DNA from: Candidatus Methanoperedens sp. | GTDB lineage: Archaea; Halobacteriota; Methanosarcinia; Methanosarcinales; Methanoperedenaceae | Length of the DNA: 53,526 nt | Direction of reading: 5' to 3' | Assembly: GCA_028715885.1 (NCBI GenBank) | Contig: JAQUQX010000009.1 | Coordinates: 1 to 53,526 of the forward strand | Part shown: in pieces, positions 10,537 to 49,463 of the stretch | Layout: each line of letters opens with the position of its first letter | Numbering within the stretch: position 1 is the first letter of the stretch | Notes under the pieces: generated by a model | What the model was told of the DNA's origin: nothing | Database searches by the model: none | Seen by the model: only the letters and a program-made list of their open reading frames with translations | Position numbers and translations under genes: made by a program

Positions 10537-10911
10537 ATGACACTAAAAGTAACGCTAATAACAGGACGGACAATCAATCAGGGAGCGACTATTGAAAACA
10601 AGACCTCTTCTGACTATCAGGAAGCAACTGCGTATTGTGAGTTGAATTCGAAGGAGGCGGGGTCTTTAGGCAAACCCGGCAGCCACGTCAGGGTTAAAAC
10701 ACCGCACGGGGATGTTGTTGTGAAATTAAAGGAGAACAACGGCAATCCTGACGGCATTGCATTCATCCCGATGGGTCCCTGGGCTAATGCCGTGGTTGAC
10801 CCCGACACCAAAGGCTGCGGGATGCCGGGGTTCAAGGGAATTCCTGCCGAGATAGAGGCTACCGGCGACAGGATATTGTTAATGAAAGAACTGATTGCGA
10901 GGTATAAGTAA
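10537..10911 (+). CDS. fwdD: Formylmethanofuran dehydrogenase subunit D
   Basis: 124 residues, the molybdopterin dinucleotide-binding beta-barrel subunit that in other oxidoreductases is the C-terminal domain of the catalytic chain. Recognisable stretches are TLITGRTINQG at the front, GSHVRVKTPHGDVVVKL and the family motif MGPWANAVVDPDTKGCGMPGF. With FwdB it encloses the tungsten or molybdenum pterin cofactor. First gene of the operon; its TAA shares a base with the fwdB ATG at 10911, so translation is coupled. Confidence 0.95.
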   Translation: MTLKVTLITGRTINQGATIENKTSSDYQEATAYCELNSKEAGSLGKPGSHVRVKTPHGDVVVKLKENNGNPDGIAFIPMGPWANAVVDPDTKGCGMPGFKGIPAEIEATGDRILLMKELIARYK

Positions 10912-12212
10912 TGTCTAACGTAATAACCGATGCTCTCTGCCCGTTCTGCGGCTGCATGTGCGACGATATTACAGTTGTGGTAGAGAACAACAAAATAATT
11001 GAAGCAAAACACGCATGTAAGATTGGCGCGGCAAAAATAATGGGGCACCACAGGATAAAAGCGCCGATGATGAGAAAAGACAAAAATGCTGATTTTAAAG
11101 AGGTATCCTACGACGAAGCCATTAACGAAGCCGCACGGATGCTCGCGAACTCGAAGAGACCATTGATGTATGGCTGGGCGTCGGTGCTGTGCGAAGTTCA
11201 TAAAAAGGGCATTCTCCTTGCTGAAGAACTCGGCGCAATCATAGACAACACTGCTACCGTGTGCCATGGCCCATCCACGCTTGCGGTACACGAGAAAGGT
11301 TTGCCCACTTCAACTCTCGGTCAGATAAAGAACCGCGCTGATGTTGTGGTATTCTGGGGCAGCAACCCCGTGCATGCCCACCCGAGGCACATGGGGCGTT
11401 ATTCTGTCTTTGCAAAGGGATTTTTCTCGGAAAAAGGAAGAAGGGGGCGCAAGATTATCGTTGTGGATGTCCGCAAAACCGAGACTGCCGGCATGGCAGA
11501 TGAATACATACAGGTGCAGCAGGGCAGCGATTATCTGGTTATATCCGCATTGAGAGCAATACTTGCAGGACAGGCTGCGGTAGTGCCCGATACCGTAGGG
11601 GGCGTCCCGAAAGAGCAGCTTGTGAAACTTGTGGATACCCTGAAAGCAGCAAGGTTCGGTGCCATTTTCTTCGGTATGGGATTAACCCAGAGTATGTCAA
11701 GGTATAAGAATATCGATAATGCCATCTCCCTGACTACAGAATTGAACTCTTTTGGAAAGCATGTAATAATGCCCATGCGCGGACACTACAATGTGACAGG
11801 TTTCGGGCAGGTCTGCGCCTGGGAAACGGGCTATGCCACGGCTGTAGATTTCGCGCGGGGGGCGCCTTATTATAATCCCGGTGAGACCGCCGCCAACGAT
11901 GTGCTTACAAGAAAAGAAACAGACGCAGCTATGATTATAGCAGGAGACGCAGGCGCGCATTTCCCTGCAAATTCCGTGCGCCACCTTGCGAAAATACCTG
12001 TTGTCCAGATAGACCCCTACTGGAATCCCACGACAGAGGTCGCAAACGTGGTGATACCCGTAGCCATCTGCGGCGTTGAGGTGGAGGGTACAGCCTACAG
12101 GATGGACGGCGTATCCCTGCGGTACAGGAAGATGATAGAACCAACGCATCCGACAGACCTTGAAATTCTTGAAAAAATAACAAAGCGCGTCATAGAGATA
12201 AGGGGTGAGTAA
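10911..12212 (+). CDS. fwdB: Formylmethanofuran dehydrogenase subunit B (catalytic)
   Basis: 433 residues. The 4Fe-4S ligands are CPFCGCMCDD near residues 10-17 with C36. The metal-ligating residue is Cys118 in ATVCHGPST, so this is a cysteine rather than a selenocysteine form. The enzyme interconverts CO2 and formate at the W/Mo bis-pterin site; formate is then passed to FwdA for condensation with methanofuran. In methane oxidisers this is the last, CO2-releasing step. It lies between fwdD and fwdA with no gaps. W and Mo isoforms (Fwd/Fmd) cannot be told apart by sequence alone. Confidence 0.95.
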   Translation: MSNVITDALCPFCGCMCDDITVVVENNKIIEAKHACKIGAAKIMGHHRIKAPMMRKDKNADFKEVSYDEAINEAARMLANSKRPLMYGWASVLCEVHKKGILLAEELGAIIDNTATVCHGPSTLAVHEKGLPTSTLGQIKNRADVVVFWGSNPVHAHPRHMGRYSVFAKGFFSEKGRRGRKIIVVDVRKTETAGMADEYIQVQQGSDYLVISALRAILAGQAAVVPDTVGGVPKEQLVKLVDTLKAARFGAIFFGMGLTQSMSRYKNIDNAISLTTELNSFGKHVIMPMRGHYNVTGFGQVCAWETGYATAVDFARGAPYYNPGETAANDVLTRKETDAAMIIAGDAGAHFPANSVRHLAKIPVVQIDPYWNPTTEVANVVIPVAICGVEVEGTAYRMDGVSLRYRKMIEPTHPTDLEILEKITKRVIEIRGE

Positions 12213-12213
12213 C

Positions 12214-13926
12214 ATGGAACTTCTAATAAAGAACGGTGCAGTATTTGACCCTGCCAACGGTATTGCAGGCGATAAAACCGATATTTCAATAAAAGATGGG
12301 AAAATCGTAGATAAGGTGAGCAGCGGCGCTATTGTAATTGATGCAGGCGGAAGGCTTGTCATGCCCGGGGGCGTTGATGCGCATTCCCACATAGCGGGCG
12401 CAAAGGTGAACGTGGGTAGGATAATGCGTCCCGAGGATACCCGCGCCGGGATAAAACCCAGGACAAAAATAACAAGACCGTATACGGGATACACTGTCCC
12501 GAACGTCTATGCCATGGGTTACAGATATGCCCAGATGGGTTATACCACGGTATTCGAAGCTGCGCAGGCTATCATGAAAGCGCGCCACACGCATGAAGAA
12601 CTTGAAGAAATACCGATAATAGACAAGGGCGCTCTCACGCTGTTCGGAAGCAACTGGCCTACAATGGACTATGTCCGCGAGAAGAACATGGATAAGCTTG
12701 CGGCGTATGTGGCGTGGGGTTTGCTTGCAAGCAGGGGATTCGGCATCAAGGTCGTTAATCCCGGCGGCGGCGAGATGTGGGGCTTCGGCAAGAATGTGAC
12801 CGGTCTGGATGATGTAGTCCCGAATTTTGAGGTCACACCGAGAGATATTATAGTATCGCTGATGAAAGTCAATGAGATGCTGGGGCTTCCCCATTCCGTG
12901 CACCTTCACTGCAACAATCTGGGAAAGCCGGGCAATTACAAGACAACGCTTGCGAGCATGGAACTTGCAAAGCAGGTAAAGCCCAGTAAGGACAGGCAGG
13001 TGCTGCATGTCACCCATGTCACATTCAATTGCTGGGGCGGGACTAACTGGGGCGACTTCGAATCAAAAGCAGATGAGATCGCAAATTACCTGAACAACAG
13101 CGAGAATGTTACAACAGATATGGGGCAGCTTATCTTCGGCAGCGCAACTACCATGACTGCTGACGGTCCTGTGCAGTACGCCAATGCGAAACTACTGCAT
13201 GCAAAATGGGCTAACGGCGATGTGGAACTTGAAGATGCATCGGGCGTTGTCCCCATCTTCTATGTAAAACAGGTATCAATCCATGCCATTATGTGGGCGA
13301 TGGGACTTGAACTGGCTCTTCTCACAAAAGACCCGTACAAGGTCCTGCTAACCACAGACCACCCCAACGGCGGACCTTTTGTGAATTATCCTGAGGTCAT
13401 AGCCCTTCTCATGAGCAACAAGAAGCGCCAGGAGGAAATCAAGACGCTCCATGAGGCTGTTCATAAGAGAACAAAGATTCCTGGAATCGAGCGCGAACTT
13501 GGCTTTAACGATATAGCGATAATGACAAGAGCAGGCTCGGCAAAGGTGCTCGGGCTCCTCGATACTAAAGGGCATCTCGGCGTTGGCGCGGACGCCGATG
13601 TCTCCATATACGACATCAAACCCGACCAGACAGACCCCTCTGCGGAGCACGCAAAGATAAAGAGCGCGTTCCAATCAGCAGCCTATACAATAAAAGGCGG
13701 CAATGTTGTGGTGAAAGACGGTCAGATTACCGCCACCCCGATGGGCAGGACTTTCTGGGTAGATGCATCTGTGCCTGATGAACAAAAAGAAATAATGATG
13801 AAAGACATACGTATGAAATTCAAGAATTATTACTCCATAAACCTTGCAAACTACATGGTGCAGGATGCATACCTCACACATCCCTATGTTGTCAGGGCTG
13901 GGGTAATCCCTGTGGAGGTGAGCTAA
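12214..13926 (+). CDS. fwdA: Formylmethanofuran dehydrogenase subunit A
   Basis: 570 residues from ATG 12214, preceded by GGGGTGAG; a GTG three codons earlier is possible but overlaps fwdB. It is an amidohydrolase with a dinuclear metal site: H57-S-H59, the lysine expected to be carboxylated (K179 in FGIKVVNPGG) and D382 in TTDHPNGGP. It condenses formate with methanofuran or hydrolyses formylmethanofuran in reverse. Length and all ligands match the family. It joins fwdC with no spacer. Confidence 0.95.
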   Translation: MELLIKNGAVFDPANGIAGDKTDISIKDGKIVDKVSSGAIVIDAGGRLVMPGGVDAHSHIAGAKVNVGRIMRPEDTRAGIKPRTKITRPYTGYTVPNVYAMGYRYAQMGYTTVFEAAQAIMKARHTHEELEEIPIIDKGALTLFGSNWPTMDYVREKNMDKLAAYVAWGLLASRGFGIKVVNPGGGEMWGFGKNVTGLDDVVPNFEVTPRDIIVSLMKVNEMLGLPHSVHLHCNNLGKPGNYKTTLASMELAKQVKPSKDRQVLHVTHVTFNCWGGTNWGDFESKADEIANYLNNSENVTTDMGQLIFGSATTMTADGPVQYANAKLLHAKWANGDVELEDASGVVPIFYVKQVSIHAIMWAMGLELALLTKDPYKVLLTTDHPNGGPFVNYPEVIALLMSNKKRQEEIKTLHEAVHKRTKIPGIERELGFNDIAIMTRAGSAKVLGLLDTKGHLGVGADADVSIYDIKPDQTDPSAEHAKIKSAFQSAAYTIKGGNVVVKDGQITATPMGRTFWVDASVPDEQKEIMMKDIRMKFKNYYSINLANYMVQDAYLTHPYVVRAGVIPVEVS

Positions 13927-14685
13927 ATGCAGACAGTTGCAATTAAACCCAAAAACGGGATTAAGATTTCAGCAGAGGCGGAAAACATTTCACCTGATAA
14001 ATTCGCCGGGAAATCCGAAAAAGACATACAGTCGCTTGAAGCATGGATGGGAAACCAGAAGACCACGCTTGGTGAGCTTTTCACGATAAAAGCTGAGGGA
14101 ACTGGTGCCGTTGCTGATGTGAAGGTCGTAATGGAAGGAGACTTCTCGCGCGTGAAAAGGATAGGGGAAGGTATGACAGCCGGACTCGTCATGATCAAGG
14201 GCAACGTGGACATGCACCTTGGCGCAAAGATGAGCGGCGGCAAAATATCCGTAAGCGGAAACGTGGACTCCTGGGCAGGGAGGGAGATGAAGGGCGGGGA
14301 GCTTATTATCGAAGGAAACGCAGGTTATTATCTTGGCGCGGGATACCGCGGCGAGACCTGCGGAATGCGCGGCGGCAAGATAACCGTTCTGGGCAGCGCG
14401 CTTGACTTCCTGGGTGAGCACATGTGCGGCGGCGAGATCATCGTGAAAGGCAATGCCGGCATACTTGCGGGATTGAGCAACAACGGAGGCAAGATTGTAA
14501 TCGAGGGCAGCACCAGCAGACCTGGAAGTGAAATGGCAAAAGGGACAATAATAGTCGGAAAAGTGGATGAAATGATGCCGGTATTCAAGCTTGAAGGTAC
14601 CGAAGCAGTGGATGGGGTTTCTTACAGGAAATACACAGGCGATGTTATTGTGAATGGGAAGGGTGTGCTGTACGTGAAGGAATGA
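13927..14685 (+). CDS. fwdC: Formylmethanofuran dehydrogenase subunit C
   Basis: 252 residues forming a right-handed beta-helix, visible as repeated G-x-x-x-x-G-G-x-I turns (HLGAKMSGGKISVSG, WAGREMKGGELIIEG, YLGAGYRGETCGM, FLGEHMCGGEIIVKG, LAGLSNNGGKIVIEG), as in the C domain of glutamate synthase. It is the structural subunit on which FwdA and FwdB/D dock. The start codon follows the fwdA stop directly. No E, F, G or H subunit gene follows; the polyferredoxin and electron-delivery genes must lie elsewhere. Confidence 0.94.
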   Translation: MQTVAIKPKNGIKISAEAENISPDKFAGKSEKDIQSLEAWMGNQKTTLGELFTIKAEGTGAVADVKVVMEGDFSRVKRIGEGMTAGLVMIKGNVDMHLGAKMSGGKISVSGNVDSWAGREMKGGELIIEGNAGYYLGAGYRGETCGMRGGKITVLGSALDFLGEHMCGGEIIVKGNAGILAGLSNNGGKIVIEGSTSRPGSEMAKGTIIVGKVDEMMPVFKLEGTEAVDGVSYRKYTGDVIVNGKGVLYVKE

Positions 14686-14818: not shown

Positions 14819-15670
14819 ATGATAGTTATGATAATGATAACTGCAATCGTGACAATGATGGTCACTGCCATCATAACCACTGTGGCACGTTATGTTGCCT
14901 GGCAGATATCCGTTGTAGGTGACCCTTTTTATAGATTTGTAATATGGCATTTAATACTATTTACAATTGTACTGGCTCTTTTCTATGATAGCAGGCAGGG
15001 ATTCAAGAAATCAATATCAATCCTGGGATATATTGCCGAAAAATTCAATACAACAAACCGCACAGCCAAAGTAAACGCAACCATGTCCATATACAGGGAA
15101 CATTCCAAAAAATTCACTCTCAGGGCAGTGTTGATGCCGATTGCGATAACCCTGTTCGTAGCATATATCCTGTCATCACACATGCTATTCTTTGCTATAG
15201 TAACGTCTGGTTCGATGGAACCTACCTTCAAGAAAGGCGACCTTGTCTTTATGCAGAACGTTTTAGTAAAACCAAAGGTAGGGGATATAATTATATTCCC
15301 TGACCCACAGGGATCCATGGTTGGAAGCGGAACTGTTACCGTCACACACAGGGTCGTAGAACTATCGGGAGATATTCTAAGGACTAAGGGTGACAACAAC
15401 CCTACGCTGGATACATGGAAAGTTGACAAAGAGAAGGTACTTGGAAAAGCTATTATTTTGAATAACAAACCTTTTGTTTTAAAAGACGTTGGAGGATATT
15501 TCTTACTGGATTACAGGACTACTCAGTATAGCGCTGAATTCATTGCAATTTCAAAGACGATTCAGAACATGAGAACTATGGGTATTATGATATTCTTTGT
15601 TTGCCTTATAGTCTATTTGTTCCTCTCAATAAAAGATGCTCGTTCTTCACGACATTTTAGAAGCAGATAA
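14819..15670 (+). CDS. Signal peptidase I, archaeal/Sec11 type
   Basis: 283 residues. The S26 catalytic region has SGSMEP with nucleophile S132, the box THRV with H177 (Sec11-type His instead of bacterial Lys) and KGDNN with D192. Two hydrophobic segments precede it (about 5-22 and 38-55), a third leads into the active site (104-128), and one closes the protein (254-275), so it is longer than the usual 150-200 residue archaeal form. It removes signal peptides from exported proteins. It lies 105 bases before a unit containing an exported surface protein and an exported cytochrome, which may be its clients. Confidence 0.88.
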   Translation: MIVMIMITAIVTMMVTAIITTVARYVAWQISVVGDPFYRFVIWHLILFTIVLALFYDSRQGFKKSISILGYIAEKFNTTNRTAKVNATMSIYREHSKKFTLRAVLMPIAITLFVAYILSSHMLFFAIVTSGSMEPTFKKGDLVFMQNVLVKPKVGDIIIFPDPQGSMVGSGTVTVTHRVVELSGDILRTKGDNNPTLDTWKVDKEKVLGKAIILNNKPFVLKDVGGYFLLDYRTTQYSAEFIAISKTIQNMRTMGIMIFFVCLIVYLFLSIKDARSSRHFRSR

Positions 15671-15775
15671 ATACATGAGTATCATGAGTTTTTTTCATAA
15701 GGTTTATTAACCAGTCCAGTGATTTATTTCACAAATGTTTTTAACTTAATAGTTAGGTTAAGCGAGAGATAGAAT

Positions 15776-16774
15776 TTGGCGAATCTAGAGAAAATAATCA
15801 GTAAATTAATCAGCAAACCTGAGTCCTACACGCTCCAGAGGGACACGCTTGATTCATATTTAGAAAGACATAAACTGTTACTCAACCCTTTCGCTGACAA
15901 GATTGTTAATGATAAAATGTTCATCAATAAAGATGAAGTTGTCTGCAACAGGATAATGCGGGCTGCAAGGCATAACCAGTCAAGCCTGATAATACTGATG
16001 GGTCCTACAGGTTCGGGGAAAAGCGAAAATGCCGATTTTATTGTGAGAAACCTGCCCGAAGATTTTGTTTTCTGGTATAACCAGGTGTATGGTCAGAATT
16101 CAGTCCAGCTTGCCACATCGATAATAGGCGACCTTGACCCCAACTATCTGGCAAGATTATCTACGGCTGACAGGGAAATGATTCTTGATATTTATAACGA
16201 TGTATTGAAAGCTATTGTCAGGAATAACAAGAAATTATTCTGTATATTTGACCAGGGAGAGCATTTTTCAAAAGATGCATTTGAACTTGTTACCAATTCA
16301 ACAAATCCTTATTACGCTGCAAACAGGGCATTTACTGGATTGATTCTTGCGGTGCCGCGTTTTGAAAAACAAATCGAAGAATGGACTGAAAACCTTGATA
16401 CCATGTTGAGAAGGGCTCTTATACGCGAATATACCCGACCCTTTACGGTTTCACAGCGTCTTGAATATATTGCCAGAGCTCTCGCATCGAGTAAGAAAGA
16501 AAGCTATCTGGAATTGATGAAAAAGCACGAATTTGACCCATTCGATGATGATGCGATTATATATTTAATAGAAAAGAGCGACGGGCACCCCAGCACTCTT
16601 AATAACCTGTGTTACATTTCTCTGGAATTGGCTTCTGCAATTTCACCGGACGCTATTATAACAGAATCTGTGGTTGAAGAAGCATGGACCAAATTCCCCA
16701 ATAAAAGAATCCATCAGGAAGCTATAAAATGGTATAAGGAAAAAGGTCTATACCAAAAACAAGAAGACATATAG
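15776..16774 (+). CDS. P-loop ATPase, AAA+/TniB-like
   Basis: 332 residues from a TTG start preceded by GCGAGAGAT. Walker A is GPTGSGKS at 76-83 and the probable Walker B strand is KLFCIFDQGEH (153-163), ending D-Q rather than D-E. The C-terminal third is helical, with a lid-like segment around YLIEKSDGHPSTLNN resembling sensor-2 regions of ORC/Cdc6 and ExeA/TniB-type ATPases. No signal peptide or membrane segment. It is the first of four closely packed genes leading to a hexaheme cytochrome; the gap to the next gene is nine bases. Its role there is unknown; energy-driven assembly or gating of the membrane partner is a reasonable guess. Confidence 0.72.
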   Translation: MANLEKIISKLISKPESYTLQRDTLDSYLERHKLLLNPFADKIVNDKMFINKDEVVCNRIMRAARHNQSSLIILMGPTGSGKSENADFIVRNLPEDFVFWYNQVYGQNSVQLATSIIGDLDPNYLARLSTADREMILDIYNDVLKAIVRNNKKLFCIFDQGEHFSKDAFELVTNSTNPYYAANRAFTGLILAVPRFEKQIEEWTENLDTMLRRALIREYTRPFTVSQRLEYIARALASSKKESYLELMKKHEFDPFDDDAIIYLIEKSDGHPSTLNNLCYISLELASAISPDAIITESVVEEAWTKFPNKRIHQEAIKWYKEKGLYQKQEDI

Positions 16775-16783
16775 ACGGTACCA

Positions 16784-18040
16784 ATGGAAAAAGACAATGC
16801 ACGTTATACAAGCAAGAGAATTGATATCGATTCATTATTCAAAAAAGATGGGGCGTATGTCAATAAAAAACTTGACCTGGATAATTTGTTAGGGTCACGT
16901 GTTGTAAAAACTCCGGTATACCAGCCTGTTCATCGGAAGGATGGGGTGGTAAGACACCTTTCCCCGGGGGAATACATCGTCGTAATCAGCATGGTTCTTA
17001 CTTCTTTATACCTGTTGATTACGTCTTTTTTCCCGCTTGTCTATAATATTGCCACATCTTTTGAACCTGTAAATTTCTTAATGAATTTGTTTTACTTTAT
17101 ATTAGGAATCGGAAGCCTGGCCGGGGCTTTTCTGGTGCTAAAAAAAGAGACCCATCTTGAACATATTGCAGACGATACCTTTGACCAGGTGGTTTACAAA
17201 CGCCTTGAGCCTGTGCTGCAAGATGTGGCAGAAGTCCAGGTAGGATTAAGCGATGTTCATAATCAACTGGAAATGATGAACCTCAATATAGAAAAAATCG
17301 GTCATATCCGGGAACAAACCGTTTCTACGGTTGCATCAACCCCGGTTCAGACGTCCATGTATATCAAATATGTCGTGTTAATCAATATCACCCTGGCTAC
17401 ATTTTTATTTATGTTACAATATCCACTGGAATACATACCATACGCAGTTACCGTTGTTTATATTATCTGGTGGGCAGTCATAACGCAGGAGTTTAAGCTG
17501 TGGAATGTAGAGTCGGTATGGATGTGGGTATTTGTCCCCATTCTAATACTTCCTGTATATACCATCATAATGAACGCATATCTGCGTGATTACCAGATGT
17601 TCGGCTCATTGTTTTTAGGGTTGGTTGCTTATGTTATTATATATTATTCATGGTGTTCCAATATGGTACGGGGCGTACTTCCTTTCGACCTTCATATCGC
17701 ACTGGCGGAATTTAAAAAGATGATGAAAGAAAAAACTACTGCCGCCGAGACTCAGAAACCCGTGGTTTCAATGCCCCGTATTGATTTGAAAATAGATTTT
17801 AAATTGAGTTTATACCAGATCGGGATTTCACTGGTAATCGGGTCAATTGTTTTGTTCGCATCCGCATGGTTTGGTTTTTCAATCCAGAATGGTTTGATAC
17901 CGAATGTTACTTGGGAAGCTCTGGGATTTGAAAAGTTCGTATGGAAACCTCTGTATTCATACGCATTAACCTTCCTCGGTATAATTTTGCTGGGAGTGGG
18001 ATATAGTTTAGTCCTGAAATTCAGGAGGAACACTTATTGA
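16784..18040 (+). CDS. Polytopic membrane protein with coiled-coil loop, unknown
   Basis: 418 residues; family not recognised. About 60 soluble residues (two short DIDSLF/DLDNLL repeats) come first, then two membrane spans (about 62-85 and 95-115), a cytoplasmic helical segment (125-185) with heptad-like spacing (VQVGLSDVHNQLEMMNLNIE), three to four more spans (200-300), a Lys/Thr linker and two C-terminal spans (345-365, 388-410). The coiled coil could dock the ATPase encoded upstream. The stop overlaps the TTG start of the next gene as TTGA, so translation is coupled. Confidence 0.75.
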   Translation: MEKDNARYTSKRIDIDSLFKKDGAYVNKKLDLDNLLGSRVVKTPVYQPVHRKDGVVRHLSPGEYIVVISMVLTSLYLLITSFFPLVYNIATSFEPVNFLMNLFYFILGIGSLAGAFLVLKKETHLEHIADDTFDQVVYKRLEPVLQDVAEVQVGLSDVHNQLEMMNLNIEKIGHIREQTVSTVASTPVQTSMYIKYVVLINITLATFLFMLQYPLEYIPYAVTVVYIIWWAVITQEFKLWNVESVWMWVFVPILILPVYTIIMNAYLRDYQMFGSLFLGLVAYVIIYYSWCSNMVRGVLPFDLHIALAEFKKMMKEKTTAAETQKPVVSMPRIDLKIDFKLSLYQIGISLVIGSIVLFASAWFGFSIQNGLIPNVTWEALGFEKFVWKPLYSYALTFLGIILLGVGYSLVLKFRRNTY

Positions 18041-19785
18041 AGAAATTCCTGATCCTTGGTCTTATTCTGATTTTCCTGCCTGTTATATCTGCCGCAGAGA
18101 CGATAAACGGTCTTGACGTTGAATGGGATAGCAGCGCCGACTATACCCTGAGCTGGACGAACCCCGCAATCACTAAAGGGGATTATGTTATAAAGGTAAT
18201 TGATTTTAACTGGAAAGGAGATGCGGTAGTTTCTGTCACGCGAAATGGTGAAACCCAAAAAGGAGTAGTATCCCAGGGTGAAAATTCTATTTTCAATTTC
18301 ACTAAAAACACTATGTATTTTCAAGGAGTGAAGATTTACCCGACAGCAATTTCTAACTTTTCCTTGCCCACAAACTTGGGCACATATCCATGCTGCCCTG
18401 CCGCCCAGGTAACAGTTTCAATTTCAAAAGCAATCACCCAAAAAAAGCCTGTATTGGAGCTTGTCTTAACACCCAACTGGGATGGCAGGTCGGGCATTTC
18501 CTCTCCCATGAACATTGAGATTAAGAATACAGGAGATGCGGATTTTTCAGAAGGGAATGTTTCTGTAAATATAACCGGTCTGCAAATTGCAGACCAGAAG
18601 GAATTATCGGATTTTGCATTAACATATAATCCAAAAAAAGGCATAGTATCCCGCAGGTGGTCTATTCCTCTACTAGCAGATAATTCCTATTCCTTTAATT
18701 TATCTGTAAAACCGCCCCTCCCTCCTGATCCGAATAAATCAACATACACAATCAAAGTAGATAGTTTTTTTAAAGATAATTCCGGTAACGTTTACCCTGC
18801 CTCAGCCTCAGCAACGGTCTCGGTTAATCCTACGACGGAAATTACGAAAAGAATAACAGCTTCGACTATCTTACCTGAAAAAACGTACGGAGAACGACAG
18901 GCTGATACAGGTTTTCTTCCAAAATTTTTTGGTCTCGGGAAGATAACTGTTGTAAACCTGTATGTAAAAAACAGGCAAAGTTATCCTGTAAAGTCATTGG
19001 TTCTCAATGATACTATAATGGAAGGTTTCAGGCTTGATAATACTACCTCTCCTACTCCGGGTTTTAAATTGATGGATACTAACACTAAATTACAGTGGGT
19101 TTTCGATCTTAACGCAAGCGAAACAAAAGAGTTCAGGTACGAGATGAATGCACAAAAAACAGGGTCTTTTACAGCACCTGCAGCGGTTGCACAATGGAAC
19201 GAATGGGGCGCTCCCAAAACCAAATCTTCCGACCAGCCTGCAACCAGGGTATATGGGGTTTTTGTGGTGGTCTCAAAGAAAACGGATAAACTTGCTTTTA
19301 ATTTGAAAGAACGCCTTAATGTAACAACTGTCCTGGAAAACATAGGTGATTTCCCTGTGGGAATAAATGTGACCGACATTCTGCCGGAAAATGCCGCGTT
19401 CATTTCAGGAAATACATCCTACAGCGGTTTTCTGTACCCCAAGGAATCAGTTTCCCTGGCATATACTTTATCCGAGGATAAGCCCGGGGAATTAGAATTA
19501 CCATCACCGCAGGTCACTTTTTGGAGAAAAGAGTATGAGGGGTCATATGGCTTCATACCTGCTAAAAATGTTACAGCCATTGAGCCATCCATAGTTTTAC
19601 CTGCCAATGCTACATCTCTCAGCCAGAATATTACATCAACTCCCGCAGAGACGCCTTTACCGAAAAGCTTGCTTGAAATAATAGGCACAAAGGCTCCCTG
19701 GCTGGAGGGGGCTATCCCGATAATAATGCTATTCATTGCGATTATTTTAATGCTATTGCTGCATGTTATCAACAGGAAACCATGA
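18037..19785 (+). CDS. Exported surface protein with Ig-like repeats, membrane anchored
   Basis: 582 residues from a TTG start. A signal peptide (residues 1-20, FLILGLILIFLPVISAA) precedes an N-terminal domain (LDVEWDSS ... KGDYVIKVIDF) and then several beta-sandwich repeats of DUF11/CARDB type (NIEIKNTGDADFSEGNVSV; NVTTVLENIGDFPVGINVTD). Many N-x-S/T sequons suggest glycosylation. A single membrane span near residues 557-577 ends with a short basic tail, leaving the bulk outside the cell. It is paralogous to the protein encoded at 47721-49463. Coupled to the membrane gene before it and the cytochrome after it, so it probably serves as a scaffold for one or both. Confidence 0.78.
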   Translation: MKKFLILGLILIFLPVISAAETINGLDVEWDSSADYTLSWTNPAITKGDYVIKVIDFNWKGDAVVSVTRNGETQKGVVSQGENSIFNFTKNTMYFQGVKIYPTAISNFSLPTNLGTYPCCPAAQVTVSISKAITQKKPVLELVLTPNWDGRSGISSPMNIEIKNTGDADFSEGNVSVNITGLQIADQKELSDFALTYNPKKGIVSRRWSIPLLADNSYSFNLSVKPPLPPDPNKSTYTIKVDSFFKDNSGNVYPASASATVSVNPTTEITKRITASTILPEKTYGERQADTGFLPKFFGLGKITVVNLYVKNRQSYPVKSLVLNDTIMEGFRLDNTTSPTPGFKLMDTNTKLQWVFDLNASETKEFRYEMNAQKTGSFTAPAAVAQWNEWGAPKTKSSDQPATRVYGVFVVVSKKTDKLAFNLKERLNVTTVLENIGDFPVGINVTDILPENAAFISGNTSYSGFLYPKESVSLAYTLSEDKPGELELPSPQVTFWRKEYEGSYGFIPAKNVTAIEPSIVLPANATSLSQNITSTPAETPLPKSLLEIIGTKAPWLEGAIPIIMLFIAIILMLLLHVINRKP

Positions 19786-20393
19786 AAGCTGAGACTATTA
19801 TCGGGTTAGTTGCTTTAGCGGTAATCGGGCTTGTAATTGGCATATTTTTTTCCATAAACTCAACCGATAAATCTACTCCCGGTGAAGACCTGCAACCTGC
19901 TGAAAAAGAAACTCAAACAAAAGATGCGCAAACCTCGAATTTTACAAAACTCGTGTTAATGGGACAAAACGTATGCGAAGGATGCCATCTTTCAGGAAAG
20001 AAATTCATTCCGCAGGCATACGAAGTAAAACAGCATGTTGAAGGGGGCGCATATTGTCTTGAGTGCCATACAATCGACCATAATGTGCATCCGATGAGCC
20101 CTGCAAATAAAAATGTGACCTGCGAACGATGCCATGGCTCGGCGAAACCGCAGATTCCCGCATTCCGAAACGGCACTATAGAGTGCGCACAGTGCCATGA
20201 TTTCCCGGATGCATTAAAACCGAGTGACGGGAATCTTGCGGTAATACACCGCCCGAGAAATGTGGATTGCACAAGATGCCATATAGGCGACTCGTCCGGC
20301 TCGTGTTTAAAGTGCCATACCAGTGTCAAGAGCGATAAAAAGTGGAACAAAAGGCTTACCCATTTCAATACCGTTTCAAAAACCGTTCAGTAG
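19782..20393 (+). CDS. Membrane-anchored hexaheme c-type cytochrome
   Basis: 203 residues. A single N-terminal span (about 5-24) is followed by an acidic linker and six C-x-x-C-H heme-attachment motifs beginning at residues 65, 92, 114, 135, 163 and 175. Extra His residues (H85, H100, H103, H156) are available as distal ligands, so bis-His hemes are likely. Spacing is reminiscent of NapC/NrfH- and octaheme-type cytochromes but I do not assign a family. The ATG overlaps the stop of the surface protein as ATGA. The domain would sit outside the membrane, where it could pass electrons from the membrane to an external acceptor. Confidence 0.88.
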   Translation: MKAETIIGLVALAVIGLVIGIFFSINSTDKSTPGEDLQPAEKETQTKDAQTSNFTKLVLMGQNVCEGCHLSGKKFIPQAYEVKQHVEGGAYCLECHTIDHNVHPMSPANKNVTCERCHGSAKPQIPAFRNGTIECAQCHDFPDALKPSDGNLAVIHRPRNVDCTRCHIGDSSGSCLKCHTSVKSDKKWNKRLTHFNTVSKTVQ

Positions 20394-26871: not shown

Positions 26872-29800
26872 TCACACCGGGCACACAGGCGCCGGGCACC
26901 CGCCTGCATATTCAGCATCCGCGGATACATATTTATCGGTTATATCCCCGAGATATAACACCTGCTGCGCCTTGCTGCCGTAGCGGTAAACCGTAATCCC
27001 CTTGCATTTCAGTTCGTATGCAAGCATGTACGCCTTTTCCACTTCCTTGATGTCCACGTCATGCGGGAAATTAATTGTCTTTGAGACGGCATTGTCGGTG
27101 TATTTCTGGAACGCAGCCTGCATTTTTACGTGCCACTGCGGCGCAATGTCAAAGGCGGTAACAAAAATGCGCCTGACATCTTCAGGTATTTCTTCGATGC
27201 CTGCAAGAGTTCCGCTCTTTGCGATTTTCATCATCAGCTCCTCGCTGTAAAAACCACGTTCCTTCGCAACAGCCTCAAAATTCGGATTGACCTCAAGGAG
27301 TTTGGTTCCTTCCATGACGTTGCGCACAAAAGAAACCGCAAACAGTGGTTCGATACCGCTTGAACAGCCGGCTATAATACTTATAGTCCCGGTTGGCGCT
27401 ACAGTGGTCACCGTTGAATTGCGTATGGGTGTTTTATAGATGCTGCCTTTGAAATTAGGAAATGCACCGCGCTCAACTGCCAGTCTTTCAGATGCTGCAT
27501 GGGATTTTTCCCGGATGAAACGCATTATCTCTTCCCCGGTTTTCAGGGCTTCTTCGGAATCGTATGGTATGCCAAGCTGCACAAGCATATCCGCAAAACC
27601 CATCACCCCGAGCCCGATTTTCCTGTTCGCAAGTGTGATTTCCTCAATTTCGCGAAGAGGGTATTTGTTCACGTCTATCACGTTGTCGAGGAACTTTACA
27701 GCGGTGTTTATTGTTCTCTCAAGTTTTTCCCAGTTAATCCCCGTATTTAAATACGGGGTCTTATCGCCGTCTTTAACCATTTTTGCAAGATTAATCGAAC
27801 CAAGGTTGCAGGATTCGTAGGGCAGGAGGGGCTGCTCTCCGCAATCGAGCGACACGATTCCATTGGTAATGAAGCTTAATGTCTTTGGTTCTGTTAAGTC
27901 GTAAACAAACTCTTTTCCGTTCTCTTTCACAGATTTTACAGGCTCTTCAAAACTGTCAGAATAAAATGTTTTTGTGAAAAATTTATTTATTTTATCTGCA
28001 TGCATTTCGCACAGGAATCCGATTTCTCTCAAAAATCTTACCGCACTTTCTTTGCTAATTTCAAGCTCATAGCATACGCCACTTGAACCATATTTTCTTA
28101 ATTCGCCTTTCCTGTCAAGATAACTGAATTTATTTTCTTGCGCCGGTCTGCTTCTATCGTATATCCTCGACTTAATCCCTAAATTCAACAAAAGCATTTG
28201 TATATCTTTCAACAGCCTCCGGGATTTCGAAGTCAGTCTTGTGTATGATGATTTATTCTCAATAAAATTAACAGTCCCATCCGCAGTGAATAAACCCTGC
28301 AAGAACCCGATTAAAGCGTCTTTTGGCACAGTGAAAATACTTTCCGGTACTGTTTTGTTCTCGCCATCCACAGGTTTTACACCCAGCTTCTTGAAAAAGT
28401 CAACGAAATATTTCGAATGATATGATAAGTGATAAGCTCCATTCTCTCTTTCCACTTCGTTTATATCAGAGCCATACCATGAGTTTATAATAGGTTTGAA
28501 ATAGTACATTACGTTTTTGTCTTGTTTTGAAAACGTGAACCCGACTCTACAATTTTTATCGGCATCCCTGAGCCATCCGTCACCAAGCAGCCAGCCCAAT
28601 ACCTGACCCAGTTCTTTGCTCCACCTATCCGGTAAATTCAATCTGTAAATTTTTCCGTTCTCTCCAACAAACTCATTCCTGACTTCAAATGGTAGTTCAT
28701 AATTCGCACCAAATCCACCTTCGCCAGATTGAATCGATACTCTGTGCTTCAACGGATTCAGATCTAATGCCTTTACCCAGCCTTCATTTGTCAGAACTTT
28801 ATGGTCAGCAGTGCAGGTTAGCTCATATCCCGACTCGGTCTCAATCCTGTACGTCTCCTTTTCTCCAACACAAAAAGACTTTGATATTTCATTGAAACTA
28901 ACTCTACTTTGCTTTGAGCGCATCAGGCTTATTGTTCCACCGCTATTCATAATCTGGATTGGAATTTTGTTATCCGTGGCAATTTTTATCCCTCCATCCG
29001 GGTATTTTTCAATCAGTTCGCTCATTCTCATCAAGCCATTTTCTGTAGAGATAAGCGTGCTTCCAGCAACGCACGGGTTGGTGCTCTCCATCTCCCCTCT
29101 CTGCGGCGTTGGATTGTGCCTGTTTATCTCGTCGATAAATATAATCCCCGGGTCGCCTGTTCTCCATGCCATGGTTATTATAAGATTCCAGATATCCCTT
29201 GCCCTGACTTTTTTCACTACCTCCTTATTTCGGGGATTTATCAATTCATAGTCACCATCTTCCTTTACCGCATTCATGAATTTATCATCCGCAGCCACTG
29301 AGATATTGAAATTCGCAAGGAAGCCCTCTTTTGTTTTTGCCGTTATGAAATCAATAATATCGGGATGGTCAGCCCTGAGTATGCCCATATTTGCGCCGCG
29401 CCTCTTGCCCCCCTGCTTTATCACGTCAGTTGTGGTATCGAACACGCGCATGAATGTAACAGGACCTGAAGCCACGCCTTTGGTGGACTTTACTATGTCG
29501 CCCGAAGGTCGAAGGCGCGAGAACGAAAATCCCGTCCCGCCACCTGATTGCTGGATGAGCGCCATGTGCTTAACGGCATCGAAAATGCCAACGAGCGAAT
29601 CCTCGACAGGAATCACAAAACAGGCGGAAAGCTGCCCCAGGTCAGTGCCTGCGTTCATGAGCGTGGGTGTGTTGGGGAGAAATTCAAGATTTGCCAGCAT
29701 ATTGAAAAATTCATCTTCGGATTCGGGGTCAAGAGCGACAGCCTTTGCAATACGCCGCAAAAGCCGAAGTGGTGTCTCTATTACGTTCCCGTGCTCGTCT

Positions 29801-30168
29801 TTTAACAGGTAGCGCCTCTCAAGAACCCTTGCAGCATTAACGCTTAACTTTAATTCATCACTGACACCTAAGAACTGTTTGGCTTTTCGTATCTGGGCGC
29901 GCTTCTCCCTGTACAGGATGTATGCTTTTGCCACTCCAGCATAGCCGTTTTTAATCAGAACTTCTTCTACGATGTTCTGGACGTCTTCGACGCCGGGTAT
30001 CCCTGCGATTCTTTCCTCTATGGTTTTTTCGACCTCTGCCGCTATTTCCTCAGCTTTTTTGCCGTCTTTGGTCTTTGTGGCGATAAAAGCCTTGAGAACA
30101 GCTTTTGCTATCTTTGACCTGTCAAATCCTGCAAGACTTCCGTCTCTTTTGCGGATTTTTTGCACCAT
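26872..30168 (-). CDS. nrdJ: Adenosylcobalamin-type (class II) ribonucleotide reductase with intein
   Basis: 1098-residue precursor; 688 residues remain after removing a 410-residue intein. Residues 1-90 are an ATP-cone (IRKRDGSLAGFDRSKIAKAV). The barrel follows with SACFVIPVEDS (C183 is a redox-active Cys), QSGGGTGFSFSRLRP, and the active-site motif N-P-C-G-E, split by the intein between N364-P365 and C776. After it come PYESCNLGSINL and, at the end, CPAPVC as the C-terminal redox pair. The class II call rests on the single-gene, nrdB-less context and the family feel of the sequence. It makes deoxyribonucleotides and needs vitamin B12; a B12-loop-type gene lies at 50861. The C-terminus is shorter than in many relatives. 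Confidence 0.9.
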   Translation of the reverse strand: MVQKIRKRDGSLAGFDRSKIAKAVLKAFIATKTKDGKKAEEIAAEVEKTIEERIAGIPGVEDVQNIVEEVLIKNGYAGVAKAYILYREKRAQIRKAKQFLGVSDELKLSVNAARVLERRYLLKDEHGNVIETPLRLLRRIAKAVALDPESEDEFFNMLANLEFLPNTPTLMNAGTDLGQLSACFVIPVEDSLVGIFDAVKHMALIQQSGGGTGFSFSRLRPSGDIVKSTKGVASGPVTFMRVFDTTTDVIKQGGKRRGANMGILRADHPDIIDFITAKTKEGFLANFNISVAADDKFMNAVKEDGDYELINPRNKEVVKKVRARDIWNLIITMAWRTGDPGIIFIDEINRHNPTPQRGEMESTNPCVAGSTLISTENGLMRMSELIEKYPDGGIKIATDNKIPIQIMNSGGTISLMRSKQSRVSFNEISKSFCVGEKETYRIETESGYELTCTADHKVLTNEGWVKALDLNPLKHRVSIQSGEGGFGANYELPFEVRNEFVGENGKIYRLNLPDRWSKELGQVLGWLLGDGWLRDADKNCRVGFTFSKQDKNVMYYFKPIINSWYGSDINEVERENGAYHLSYHSKYFVDFFKKLGVKPVDGENKTVPESIFTVPKDALIGFLQGLFTADGTVNFIENKSSYTRLTSKSRRLLKDIQMLLLNLGIKSRIYDRSRPAQENKFSYLDRKGELRKYGSSGVCYELEISKESAVRFLREIGFLCEMHADKINKFFTKTFYSDSFEEPVKSVKENGKEFVYDLTEPKTLSFITNGIVSLDCGEQPLLPYESCNLGSINLAKMVKDGDKTPYLNTGINWEKLERTINTAVKFLDNVIDVNKYPLREIEEITLANRKIGLGVMGFADMLVQLGIPYDSEEALKTGEEIMRFIREKSHAASERLAVERGAFPNFKGSIYKTPIRNSTVTTVAPTGTISIIAGCSSGIEPLFAVSFVRNVMEGTKLLEVNPNFEAVAKERGFYSEELMMKIAKSGTLAGIEEIPEDVRRIFVTAFDIAPQWHVKMQAAFQKYTDNAVSKTINFPHDVDIKEVEKAYMLAYELKCKGITVYRYGSKAQQVLYLGDITDKYVSADAEYAGGCPAPVCPV
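27844..29073 (-). other. Intein with LAGLIDADG homing endonuclease in RNR
   Basis: Residues 366-775 of the precursor (410 residues). The N-terminal splice block starts with C366 (CVAGSTLIST), block B has T453-x-x-H456 in CTADHKVL, and the two endonuclease motifs are LGWLLGDGW (about 524-532) and LQGLFTADG (about 623-631). The C-terminal junction reads FITNGIVSLD then Cys776. Inteins usually end His-Asn; here the pair is Leu-Asp. Asp-ending inteins at this RNR site are known to splice in a few bacteria as far as I recall. The endonuclease would cut intein-free alleles at this site. Confidence 0.93.
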
Positions 30169-46786: not shown

Positions 46787-47724
46787 GAGCCTATCGCATC
46801 ATCCAGGTCATATAAAAATGCTTCCAGCTCTTTTCCGGGGATGCGTGCTCCTCCTGCAAAAGGATGACCTCCTCCTGTCCCGCCATGGTTTGGCGCCACA
46901 CGGCGCAGTATTGTATTTAAATCCGCATCACCGTCACGCAGGCGGATGCTTATGTCATAAACATGTTTATGCGACCTGTACTCGCAGGACACGCCCACAC
47001 GCGCATTTCCGTAAGAGGCAGCATATATCGCCGCTTTTGACATATACCCGTTAATATCCACAACATAGGCAAGGTTTCTTAATTTCACTACTTTCCGCCT
47101 TACATGGTCCTTTATTTCCTCTTCCTTTCTTGAGGCAATTATAGCCGATTCAAGAAGACCCTCGATATCATGAGGCGGGATATCCTCTGAAAGCGCATCC
47201 AATATCCTTCTTTTGTAATCATAATCCCTGCCTGCGTATGTTATTCCCTGTATCAACGTCCCTGCGTAAAAATAGAGTGTTCTCTTATCCCAGTCCCGCT
47301 CCCATTTATTTACAAGGGGAGTTTCACTGAAATCACCTATGGCGCCGTAAATCGCAACCCTTCTCATGTCGCGGCTGAGTTTTTTCTCAAAAATACGGTA
47401 CGCCTGTTCCGAGGCTGAACAGTTATCGTGGTGAAACCAGATTTTATTATACCTTTTTTCAGGCATGGGGTGGTGGTCCATATACGTTATATTTGATTCC
47501 ATCGCAAGTTCATTTAATTTTATTTTCAATTGGGGGAATGTTTTTTCGTCGATTGCGATGTCGCATATCACAATGTTGTCATAATTTTCGGTTATGCTGT
47601 TCAATTCACCAAGCAGACTCACAGGGCTTGTAAAAAATACTGTTGAACCTGGAAGCGCGCTTTTAACGATAGCGCCTGCGCATATCCCATCGCAATCGCC
47701 ATGAGTGAAAATTATCGAACTCAT
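46783..47724 (-). CDS. DHH/DHHA1-family phosphoesterase
   Basis: 313 residues. THGDCDGICAGAI (D10 etc.) is motif I, CDIAIDE motif II, YMDHHPMP the D-H-H motif, and GGTGGGHPFAGGARI the DHHA1 nucleotide-binding loop. The subfamily is a cytosolic nanoRNase/pAp phosphatase or c-di-AMP hydrolase type; which one cannot be read. The start overlaps the upstream surface-protein gene by four bases (ATGA), and the stop overlaps engB. The unit of surface protein, phosphoesterase and GTPase is unusual. Confidence 0.9.
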   Translation of the reverse strand: MSSIIFTHGDCDGICAGAIVKSALPGSTVFFTSPVSLLGELNSITENYDNIVICDIAIDEKTFPQLKIKLNELAMESNITYMDHHPMPEKRYNKIWFHHDNCSASEQAYRIFEKKLSRDMRRVAIYGAIGDFSETPLVNKWERDWDKRTLYFYAGTLIQGITYAGRDYDYKRRILDALSEDIPPHDIEGLLESAIIASRKEEEIKDHVRRKVVKLRNLAYVVDINGYMSKAAIYAASYGNARVGVSCEYRSHKHVYDISIRLRDGDADLNTILRRVAPNHGGTGGGHPFAGGARIPGKELEAFLYDLDDAIGS

Positions 47725-49463
47725 CTTCGCCTGAATGCTATAAATAACAGGACAATGATGGCAAACACGCTTTCAAAACCCGGCGTAACATACTCTTCTG
47801 GCGTAGGTGTTGGCGCTGGGGCTACGGTTGAGTTCTGTTGGAATAATTCCTTAACCTTGTTGAGTACTTTCTGTGTAAATGAAGGTGTTTCCTGCGGTTG
47901 CGGCGCAGGTGTTGTCTGGTTTGGAGTGGCGGTTATGGTTGGTGTCGGGGTCGGCGTCTCTGTTTGGGCTGGAGTCTCGGTAGGTGTAATTGTAATATTG
48001 CTCGGGTCAATAACTGTAATCACAGGTCGCTCCGAGCTTAAAACGGCGCGTGTCGTCCCCCTGTACTCAACGCCTGTATAATTAGCAACGGCTGGAGGTA
48101 ATGTAATATTCCCCTCCTTGTCCATCCTGATGGTATAACTGAATCCTTGGGGGGTATTCAATTCCAAAAATGTGGAGGGAAGATTGGTCGAGCCGCTTAC
48201 AAGGCTTACGCCATCTGGCAGGTAGTCCTTTACTTCAGCCCGTGTGGCAATATTCCCAATGTTATCGATACTTACAGTCACTGTTACATCCTCGGTTATA
48301 TTAACAACCTGCTTATTCACAGTCTTGTTCAGGATTGTTTTCGGTCCGTTTACTACCACCGTAACCGTATTCGAAGTGGCGGTGTATGGTTTGTTATTAA
48401 CTGTGAACTGCGCTGTGGCTGCAGGCATGGTGAAACCGGAAAGGCTTGCTTCAAGAGGTTTGATAGAATATACCCAGCTCCGTTCCTCTCCGGGTTTGAG
48501 AATGGGTACATCCCATTGAAACGAGGTGTTGGTTTTCAGTTCAAAATTTTCAATCATCTTATCAGTGACATGGATATTGTACACATCAAACATGCCTCCA
48601 TTCCCAACAGAAACCGTAACCGTTGCAGTATTCTGGAGATACATTCTGTCTTTTATGCCCTTGCTTATCACAAAATAATTCTGTCTTGGCGAAACCGTTA
48701 CGCTTACCGAGCTTTTTGCTGCCTTGTATTCAAGGTCTTTGACATCGAAACCCTTTGCTTCAGCGCTCAGGGCATATGATTTTGGGTCAATGAGTTCAGG
48801 AACGACCAGTATTATCTCAAAACTGTTGCTTTCGCTCTTTTCCATCTTATTATAATACTGGTGGAGCTGGCTCGTATCGCCCCCGCGAAGAGCCAGTTCG
48901 CCGATAGTCAGGTAAACATCAATATTTTTTGCTCTTGCTTCGCCTGTATTTGATACTGTAACCTTTACGGTAATTGCCCTTTCATTATATGATATGTATT
49001 CGCTTTTATCTGTTGTAACCGTAACTTCGATTTTCGGTTTTGCTCTTAACTGTATTGATATGGTCGCAGAAGGACTATAGTACTCAAATACCCACACTTT
49101 ATCATTCTTTGCAGGTAGACCGGTAGTAGATATTTTTACTTCATAATCAGGGTCAATATAAGCCTCTGTTTGCAGATTCATAACAAGCTCTTTTATGAGA
49201 ACGCCGTTTCTATAGACCTCAAGAAAAACCGACGGCTCAACATCCGTTTCGGGAACAATATTTCCCTTTATGTCCTTCACTCCCGGCACAGGAGAAGGAA
49301 ATTGCACGGCTTTGACCATATATTCCCCGCTGGTCATTGTGCCGCCTTTACTGAGTGTGTTCGATACGGCACCTGCCCATTCTATGTCGTTCGGGCTGAA
49401 ACTTGCCGCTGATGCCAGATTTACATAACCGAGAATTATAATTAAAACTGCTAACCTTTTCAT
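47721..49463 (-). CDS. PGF-CTERM surface protein with DUF11/CARDB-like repeats
   Basis: 580 residues. Signal peptide 1-19 (AVLIIILGYVNLASA), an N-terminal domain (FSPNDIEWAGA...GEYMVKAVQF) related to the surface protein at 18037, several beta-sandwich repeats (VTVSNTGEARAKNIDVY; VSIDNIGNIATRAEVKD), a Thr/Pro-rich glycosylation-type stalk (about 498-560) and the C-terminal TPGF signal (P561-G562-F563) followed by a span and RRR. This is the PGF-CTERM tag that archaeosortase removes when lipid-anchoring S-layer proteins. Function at the surface is unknown. Confidence 0.85.
   Translation of the reverse strand: MKRLAVLIIILGYVNLASAASFSPNDIEWAGAVSNTLSKGGTMTSGEYMVKAVQFPSPVPGVKDIKGNIVPETDVEPSVFLEVYRNGVLIKELVMNLQTEAYIDPDYEVKISTTGLPAKNDKVWVFEYYSPSATISIQLRAKPKIEVTVTTDKSEYISYNERAITVKVTVSNTGEARAKNIDVYLTIGELALRGGDTSQLHQYYNKMEKSESNSFEIILVVPELIDPKSYALSAEAKGFDVKDLEYKAAKSSVSVTVSPRQNYFVISKGIKDRMYLQNTATVTVSVGNGGMFDVYNIHVTDKMIENFELKTNTSFQWDVPILKPGEERSWVYSIKPLEASLSGFTMPAATAQFTVNNKPYTATSNTVTVVVNGPKTILNKTVNKQVVNITEDVTVTVSIDNIGNIATRAEVKDYLPDGVSLVSGSTNLPSTFLELNTPQGFSYTIRMDKEGNITLPPAVANYTGVEYRGTTRAVLSSERPVITVIDPSNITITPTETPAQTETPTPTPTITATPNQTTPAPQPQETPSFTQKVLNKVKELFQQNSTVAPAPTPTPEEYVTPGFESVFAIIVLLFIAFRRR

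Follow-up and report, generated by a model that had tools for sequence, protein, structure and literature searches.

Five plus-strand open reading frames at positions 14819-20393 of the window (the whole stretch of 53,526 nucleotides from Candidatus Methanoperedens sp. analysed here) encode, in this order, a signal peptidase, an ATPase, a membrane protein, a surface protein and a cytochrome, and form a unit that is real and conserved. On balance, this unit would appear to be a platform in the membrane for processing and assembling nanowire cytochromes of the ECN/AvECN type, with an added AAA+ ATPase, and from its sequences it seems to be a variant, tied to cytochrome nanowires, of a gene pair already described though not characterised. 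New here are the co-occurrence of the membrane protein (8x TMH) with ECN, the motif [AS]-x-F-x-GQH, the coupling of the ATPase to a tail of the 8x TMH protein, and the matching of the ATPase to an ECN subtype. Archaeal extracellular cytochrome nanowires (AvECN, 8e5g, from Archaeoglobus) were reportedly solved by Baquero and colleagues in 2023, and we know of no described route for their assembly. A strict genomic partner of nanowire cytochromes, together with a precise cleavage-site prediction, makes the assembly question directly testable, and this bears on electron export from methane-oxidising archaea to minerals, electrodes and partners.

The open reading frames agree with the positions given in the initial annotation, including the 105 bases between the peptidase stop and the ATPase start, the 9-base gap between the ATPase and membrane protein genes, and the TTGA and ATGA overlaps through which the surface protein gene joins its upstream and downstream neighbours; family searches and the CXXCH count likewise bear out its domain calls and six haem motifs (Table 1). 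The genes that it listed are thus real, but it left unmentioned the formylmethanofuran dehydrogenase (fwd) operon, which is the immediate upstream neighbour of the unit and is kept beside it in eight genomes, with the unit directly 3' of fwdC. On the 3' side lies a convergent LUD/4Fe-4S gene on the opposite strand. Elsewhere in the window (26872-30168), a 1098-aa ribonucleotide reductase-like open reading frame looks by eye as if it contains an intein (HINT-like CVAGSTLISTENG ... SLDCGEQPLL).

Table 1. Features of the unit and its upstream neighbour, in window coordinates
Feature	Position	Strand	Basis
fwdD-B-A-C (formylmethanofuran dehydrogenase) operon	10537..14685	+	ORFs; gene names from sequence and order only
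Dedicated SipW/Sec11-type (archaeal family) signal peptidase I, 283 aa	14819..15670	+	TIGR02228, catalytic motifs
AAA+ ATPase, 332 aa, TTG start	15776..16774	+	AAA_22; nearest folds ORC/Cdc6, CED-4, MuB
ATPase Walker A, GPTGSGKS	16001..16024	+	Invariant in 8 relatives
ATPase Walker-B-like, LFCIFDQGEH	16235..16264	+	Invariant in relatives
8x TMH membrane protein, 418 aa, predicted N-in/C-in; TM2 and TM3 joined by a long helical rod in the cytoplasm	16784..18040	+	Family HMM, AF2, charge pattern
N-terminal cytoplasmic tail, residues 1-49 of 8x TMH protein	16784..16930	+	Alignment, tree
Tail motif copy 1, KRIDIDSLF	16814..16840	+	Alignment
Tail motif copy 2, KKLDLDNLL	16865..16891	+	Alignment
Exported Ig-like protein (DUF11/BatD, weak CARDB), C-terminal span, TTG start	18037..19785	+	Pfam; HHalign
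Hexahaem c-type cytochrome, N-terminal anchor	19782..20393	+	Cytochrome_C7; six CXXCH

The synteny that the initial annotation had proposed to look for is found in 10 of the 34 Methanoperedenaceae genomes. The order peptidase, ATPase, 8x TMH protein, surface protein is kept in all 10 genomes with the ATPase and, since it recurs in the nine other than that of the window, the unit is more than a chance arrangement. Its named relatives occur in Ca. Methanoperedens, M. nitroreducens Mnv1 included, and one of these nine (L109) has no cytochrome at the corresponding position.

The cytochrome can part from the other genes. At L119 (G017) and L120 (G032) a hexahaem cytochrome stands beside fwdC, directly after it with an ATGA overlap in the former and near it in the latter, and the other four genes of the unit are gone. 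In the cytochrome tree both copies fall inside the fwd-linked clade (support 90/93) and one of them pairs with its own genus-mate that retains the unit, for which the simplest reading would be that the four-gene block was lost twice and the cytochrome retained. Because the cytochrome stays by fwdC without the other four, the core module consists of peptidase, ATPase, membrane protein and surface protein. The position of the cytochrome at L119 and L120 is also what speaks for a local electron-transfer unit built around it, tied to fwd or to an acceptor response, with the ATPase as a regulator outside assembly; however, the cytochrome persists alone where the other four genes were lost as a block, and units without fwd exist (L108-L118), so that we regard such a unit as very improbable. 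In G017, the overlap of the cytochrome start with the fwdC stop suggests translational coupling of the cytochrome to formylmethanofuran dehydrogenase.

The window cytochrome, with six CXXCH motifs and an N-terminal hydrophobic segment, is not of the AvECN type: it has six haems as opposed to four and neither the LPxTxxxFxGQH N-terminus nor the GQH motif, and a PDB search with it returned NrfB only, at 0.007. Nanowire cytochromes with genes elsewhere in the genome are likelier clients of the platform than this protein is. The window itself encodes no ECN, and the window genome (G000) carries its ECN genes on contigs 4 and 53 and its sole 8x TMH gene in the window.

Genomes were scanned with a profile of ECN, i.e., extracellular tetrahaem nanowire cytochromes of the AvECN type, and tetrahaem cytochromes encoded next to the module are homologous to AvECN 8e5g (2.4e-14, 4.2e-28 and 1.9e-41). 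Among the 34 genomes of the family, the 8x TMH protein and ECN-profile cytochromes are both present in the same 29 and both missing from the same 5, a co-occurrence that is phylogenetically clumped (Fisher 3.6e-6, unweighted and with relatedness ignored). At the level of the class (238 genomes), the two occur together in 59; the 8x TMH protein stands without ECN in one genome and ECN without the 8x TMH protein in five, and none of these six discordant genomes is more than 78% complete. In the 151 high-quality Methanosarcinia genomes the two sets are identical (29 with both, 122 with neither). Gene neighbourhoods point the same way: marine ANME loci show the order ECN, peptidase, 8x TMH and giant 34-35-haem multihaem cytochrome (MHC) (L176, L179, L187-L189), and Methanoperedens loci L108-L110 the order unit, ECN, MHC. 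The tie that the initial annotation drew to extracellular cytochromes and to electron export has support both from neighbouring genes and from co-occurrence with nanowire cytochromes. Larger Methanoperedens clusters (L131, L137, L138) hold an 11- or 8-haem MHC, ECN, peptidase, 8x TMH and surface protein, as well as a trio of ATPase, CARDB and HTH genes, and the AglB oligosaccharyltransferase in L131 and L138.

The 8x TMH protein is recovered by one family HMM both in the window and in marine ANME, between peptidase and giant MHC. Its AF2 model, with a pTM of only 0.33, shows eight helices in the membrane and a long one in the cytoplasm; no fold match to this model was found, the AF2 models being weak overall (pLDDT 63-65), and no convincing solved membrane-protein relative was found by sequence. 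Charges, together with this low-pTM model, suggest an N-in topology, and by the charge pattern most conserved tryptophans would face the cytoplasm, whereas Chadwick et al. 2022 placed them outside (PMC9012536). This matters for their proposal (PMC9012536) of a role in MHC maturation, which in general form would have the 8x TMH protein handle haem and the peptidase trim many MHC signal peptides, and for which one may cite the conserved tryptophans and the location of 8x TMH genes beside giant MHCs and, at L181 and L183, beside CcmF (which lies upstream of 8x TMH, with one small gene between). Besides the cytoplasmic placement, what counts against such a role is that 8x TMH-negative genomes keep MHCs and Ccm-type proteins: family genomes without 8x TMH and ECN have 13-41 matches to Cytochrome_C7 (a single genome of 77% completeness has 4), very large MHCs included as in G009, G017, G023 and G028, and still encode Ccm-type (Cytochrom_C_asm) proteins. 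Some Archaeoglobi units, moreover, have no haem proteins nearby, and we consider general maturation unlikely. A longer branch of the 8x TMH family (~440 aa) occurs in L178, L180 and L190 (ANME-3-like genomes) and in L133 (G033), where it adjoins tryptophan-synthesis or other housekeeping genes, not cytochromes.

The surface protein has a signal peptide and a C-terminal span, scores above cut-off for DUF11 and BatD and weakly for CARDB, and is homologous to its counterpart in ECN-type clusters (HHalign 99.9%). A distant relative, another DUF11/CARDB/BatD protein that likewise has both a signal peptide and a C-terminal span, is encoded on the minus strand of the window (47721-49463) beside DHH, GTPase and shikimate-pathway genes.

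The 8x TMH family extends to other classes of the phylum, among them genomes that we take to be Archaeoglobi-like. Loci L251, L259, L260 and L262 of this group encode peptidase and 8x TMH protein together with an exported protein of two spans (Pfam CARDB in L262). None of them has a neighbouring ECN, except that one partial match to the ECN profile lies at the outermost edge of L260; L262 also adjoins VWA/PKD genes. Given the lack of a neighbouring ECN, the platform may be broader, with ECN as one client. It could then serve the export of surface filaments or surface proteins in general, with pilin-like proteins as another client, since at L260 and L262 the peptidase, 8x TMH and CARDB protein adjoin pilin-like genes (DUF7287/7288/7289) and SipW serves TasA fibres in Bacillus (PMC10269814). 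We nonetheless give little credence to so general a platform: 8x TMH matches ECN exactly across the high-quality Methanosarcinia genomes, the pilin-like genes are divergent and may be mere neighbours, and no homology was found between the window surface protein and the Archaeoglobi CARDB protein (HHalign 2.7%). Small predicted wHTH proteins (87-115 aa) with one C-terminal span lie beside the peptidase and 8x TMH genes in L251, L253, L259, L260 and L262, and are possibly a membrane-bound regulator.

The peptidase matches the archaeal model TIGR02228 (69.1 bits, cut-off 51.9) and, weakly, the SipW model (2.4e-10; 40 bits, far under the cut-off of 190), and its Ser/His/Asp catalytic motifs are intact (SGSMEP130, HR177, KGD190). 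ECN precursors have in common [AS]-x-F-x-GQH after a hydrophobic segment, and AvECN carries the same LPSTTSLFLGQH motif. Cleavage after the small residue would put Phe at P2', and it is this position that makes TasA dependent on SipW (PMC10269814). By analogy, ECN would be cut at [AS]-x-F-x-GQH, at a site resembling the aromatic-P2' site of SipW and TasA.

The ATPase just exceeds the cut-off of AAA_22 (28.7 bits against 27), and its AF2 model (pLDDT 63) resembles ORC/Cdc6, CED-4 and MuB in Foldseek with modest confidence; a sequence search for solved relatives gave none that convinced. It adjoins an 8x TMH gene in all 10 genomes that have it, and no further copy was found in the rest of the 238 class genomes (E 1e-12). 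The ~50-residue tail, which holds two copies of [KR][KR]-hydrophobic-[DN]-hydrophobic-x-x-L-hydrophobic, is present in the alignment in 10/10 8x TMH proteins with the ATPase and in 0/18 family members without it, and the 8x TMH tree is compatible with a single gain of ATPase and tail and a single loss of both together in the sister lineage L110/L111; as the DNA of the two is adjacent, one deletion could take both, so that the pattern counts for less than two separate losses would. ATPase and tail are seen to occur together, and the ATPase may act on the 8x TMH protein by touching this tail. All 10 ATPase genomes also carry ECN of one clade (support 91/95), which in the window genome, with its ECN on other contigs, is a subtype match without linkage. 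The same clade holds G008 and G016, from lineages that lost the ATPase, and G018 (84% complete) and G020 (81% complete), where the ATPase was not found despite the ECN subtype.

A transposition helper (MuB/TniB), which the initial annotation had named as a possible unrelated origin, was looked for and rejected, the ATPase having no TniB/MuB family match, no adjacent transposase and constant neighbours in 10 genomes, with MuB appearing merely as a weak fold match. A defence origin was rejected as well (no PHROG match of note, weak PADLOC matches), and two scans of viral contigs gave no relative that would indicate viral or extrachromosomal copies. At L103 (G029) the ATPase gene has a single in-frame TAA near its 3' end, through assembly error or recent inactivation; in L195/L104 the start is apparently CTG, so that standard ORF callers shorten the protein by 33 aa there.

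Gene content, synteny, co-occurrence, tail-ATPase coupling and subtype matching are the observed part of the mechanism that we favour for the nanowire platform. ECN precursors would traverse the membrane and receive haem from the ordinary Ccm machinery, a known pathway for haem loading. The dedicated SipW-like peptidase would then cleave them at [AS]-x-F-x-GQH, and the 8x TMH and anchored Ig-like proteins could hold the subunits and feed the growing filament. The ATPase may dock on the duplicated motif of the cytoplasmic tail and switch or power the platform, its ATP driving assembly or regulation, and the anchored hexahaem cytochrome might take electrons from the carrier pool of the membrane and pass them on to the base of the filament. 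More speculatively, peptidase, 8x TMH platform and Ig-like anchor could make up an assembly machine for archaeal nanowires in which, in one Methanoperedens lineage, an ORC/MuB-type ATPase on the duplicated tail motif controls the build.

The initial annotation knew of no named system with this gene set; this fails for peptidase and 8x TMH, a pair that Chadwick et al. 2022 reported both upstream of CcmF2/ANME MHC-B and in other settings (PMC9012536), and stands for the ATPase arm and the specific nanowire-cytochrome tie, of which no description was found in the literature searched. Like that pair, the window unit combines the same membrane-protein family with an adjacent archaeal-type peptidase, which in marine ANME loci stands beside ECN-type and giant MHC genes. 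Unlike it, the unit continues with an Ig-like anchored protein and a hexahaem cytochrome, has gained ATPase and tail, and follows fwd, with a LUD/Fe-S gene downstream and no adjacent CcmF2/MHC-B; the difference concerns the variant, not the family. With ExeA/PEP-CTERM ATPases, ORC/Cdc6 and MuB (AAA_22-type AAA+) the window ATPase shares the P-loop and fold class, but it falls far under the cut-offs of these families, passing only the general AAA_22, and differs in its fixed membrane-protein partner and in having no DNA-mobility genes beside it. The SipW-TasA system of Bacillus is similar in its dedicated archaeal-type peptidase, an aromatic residue at the would-be P2' of the client and a surface fibre; it differs in that the proposed client here carries haem and does not have the TasA fold (no TasA/camelysin-type Pfam or NCBIfam match within the unit), and to our knowledge it includes no 8x TMH protein, ATPase or Ig-like protein. 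Finally, as regards AvECN nanowires, the module is found in the same genomes as AvECN homologues with the AvECN N-terminal motif, and often lies beside them.
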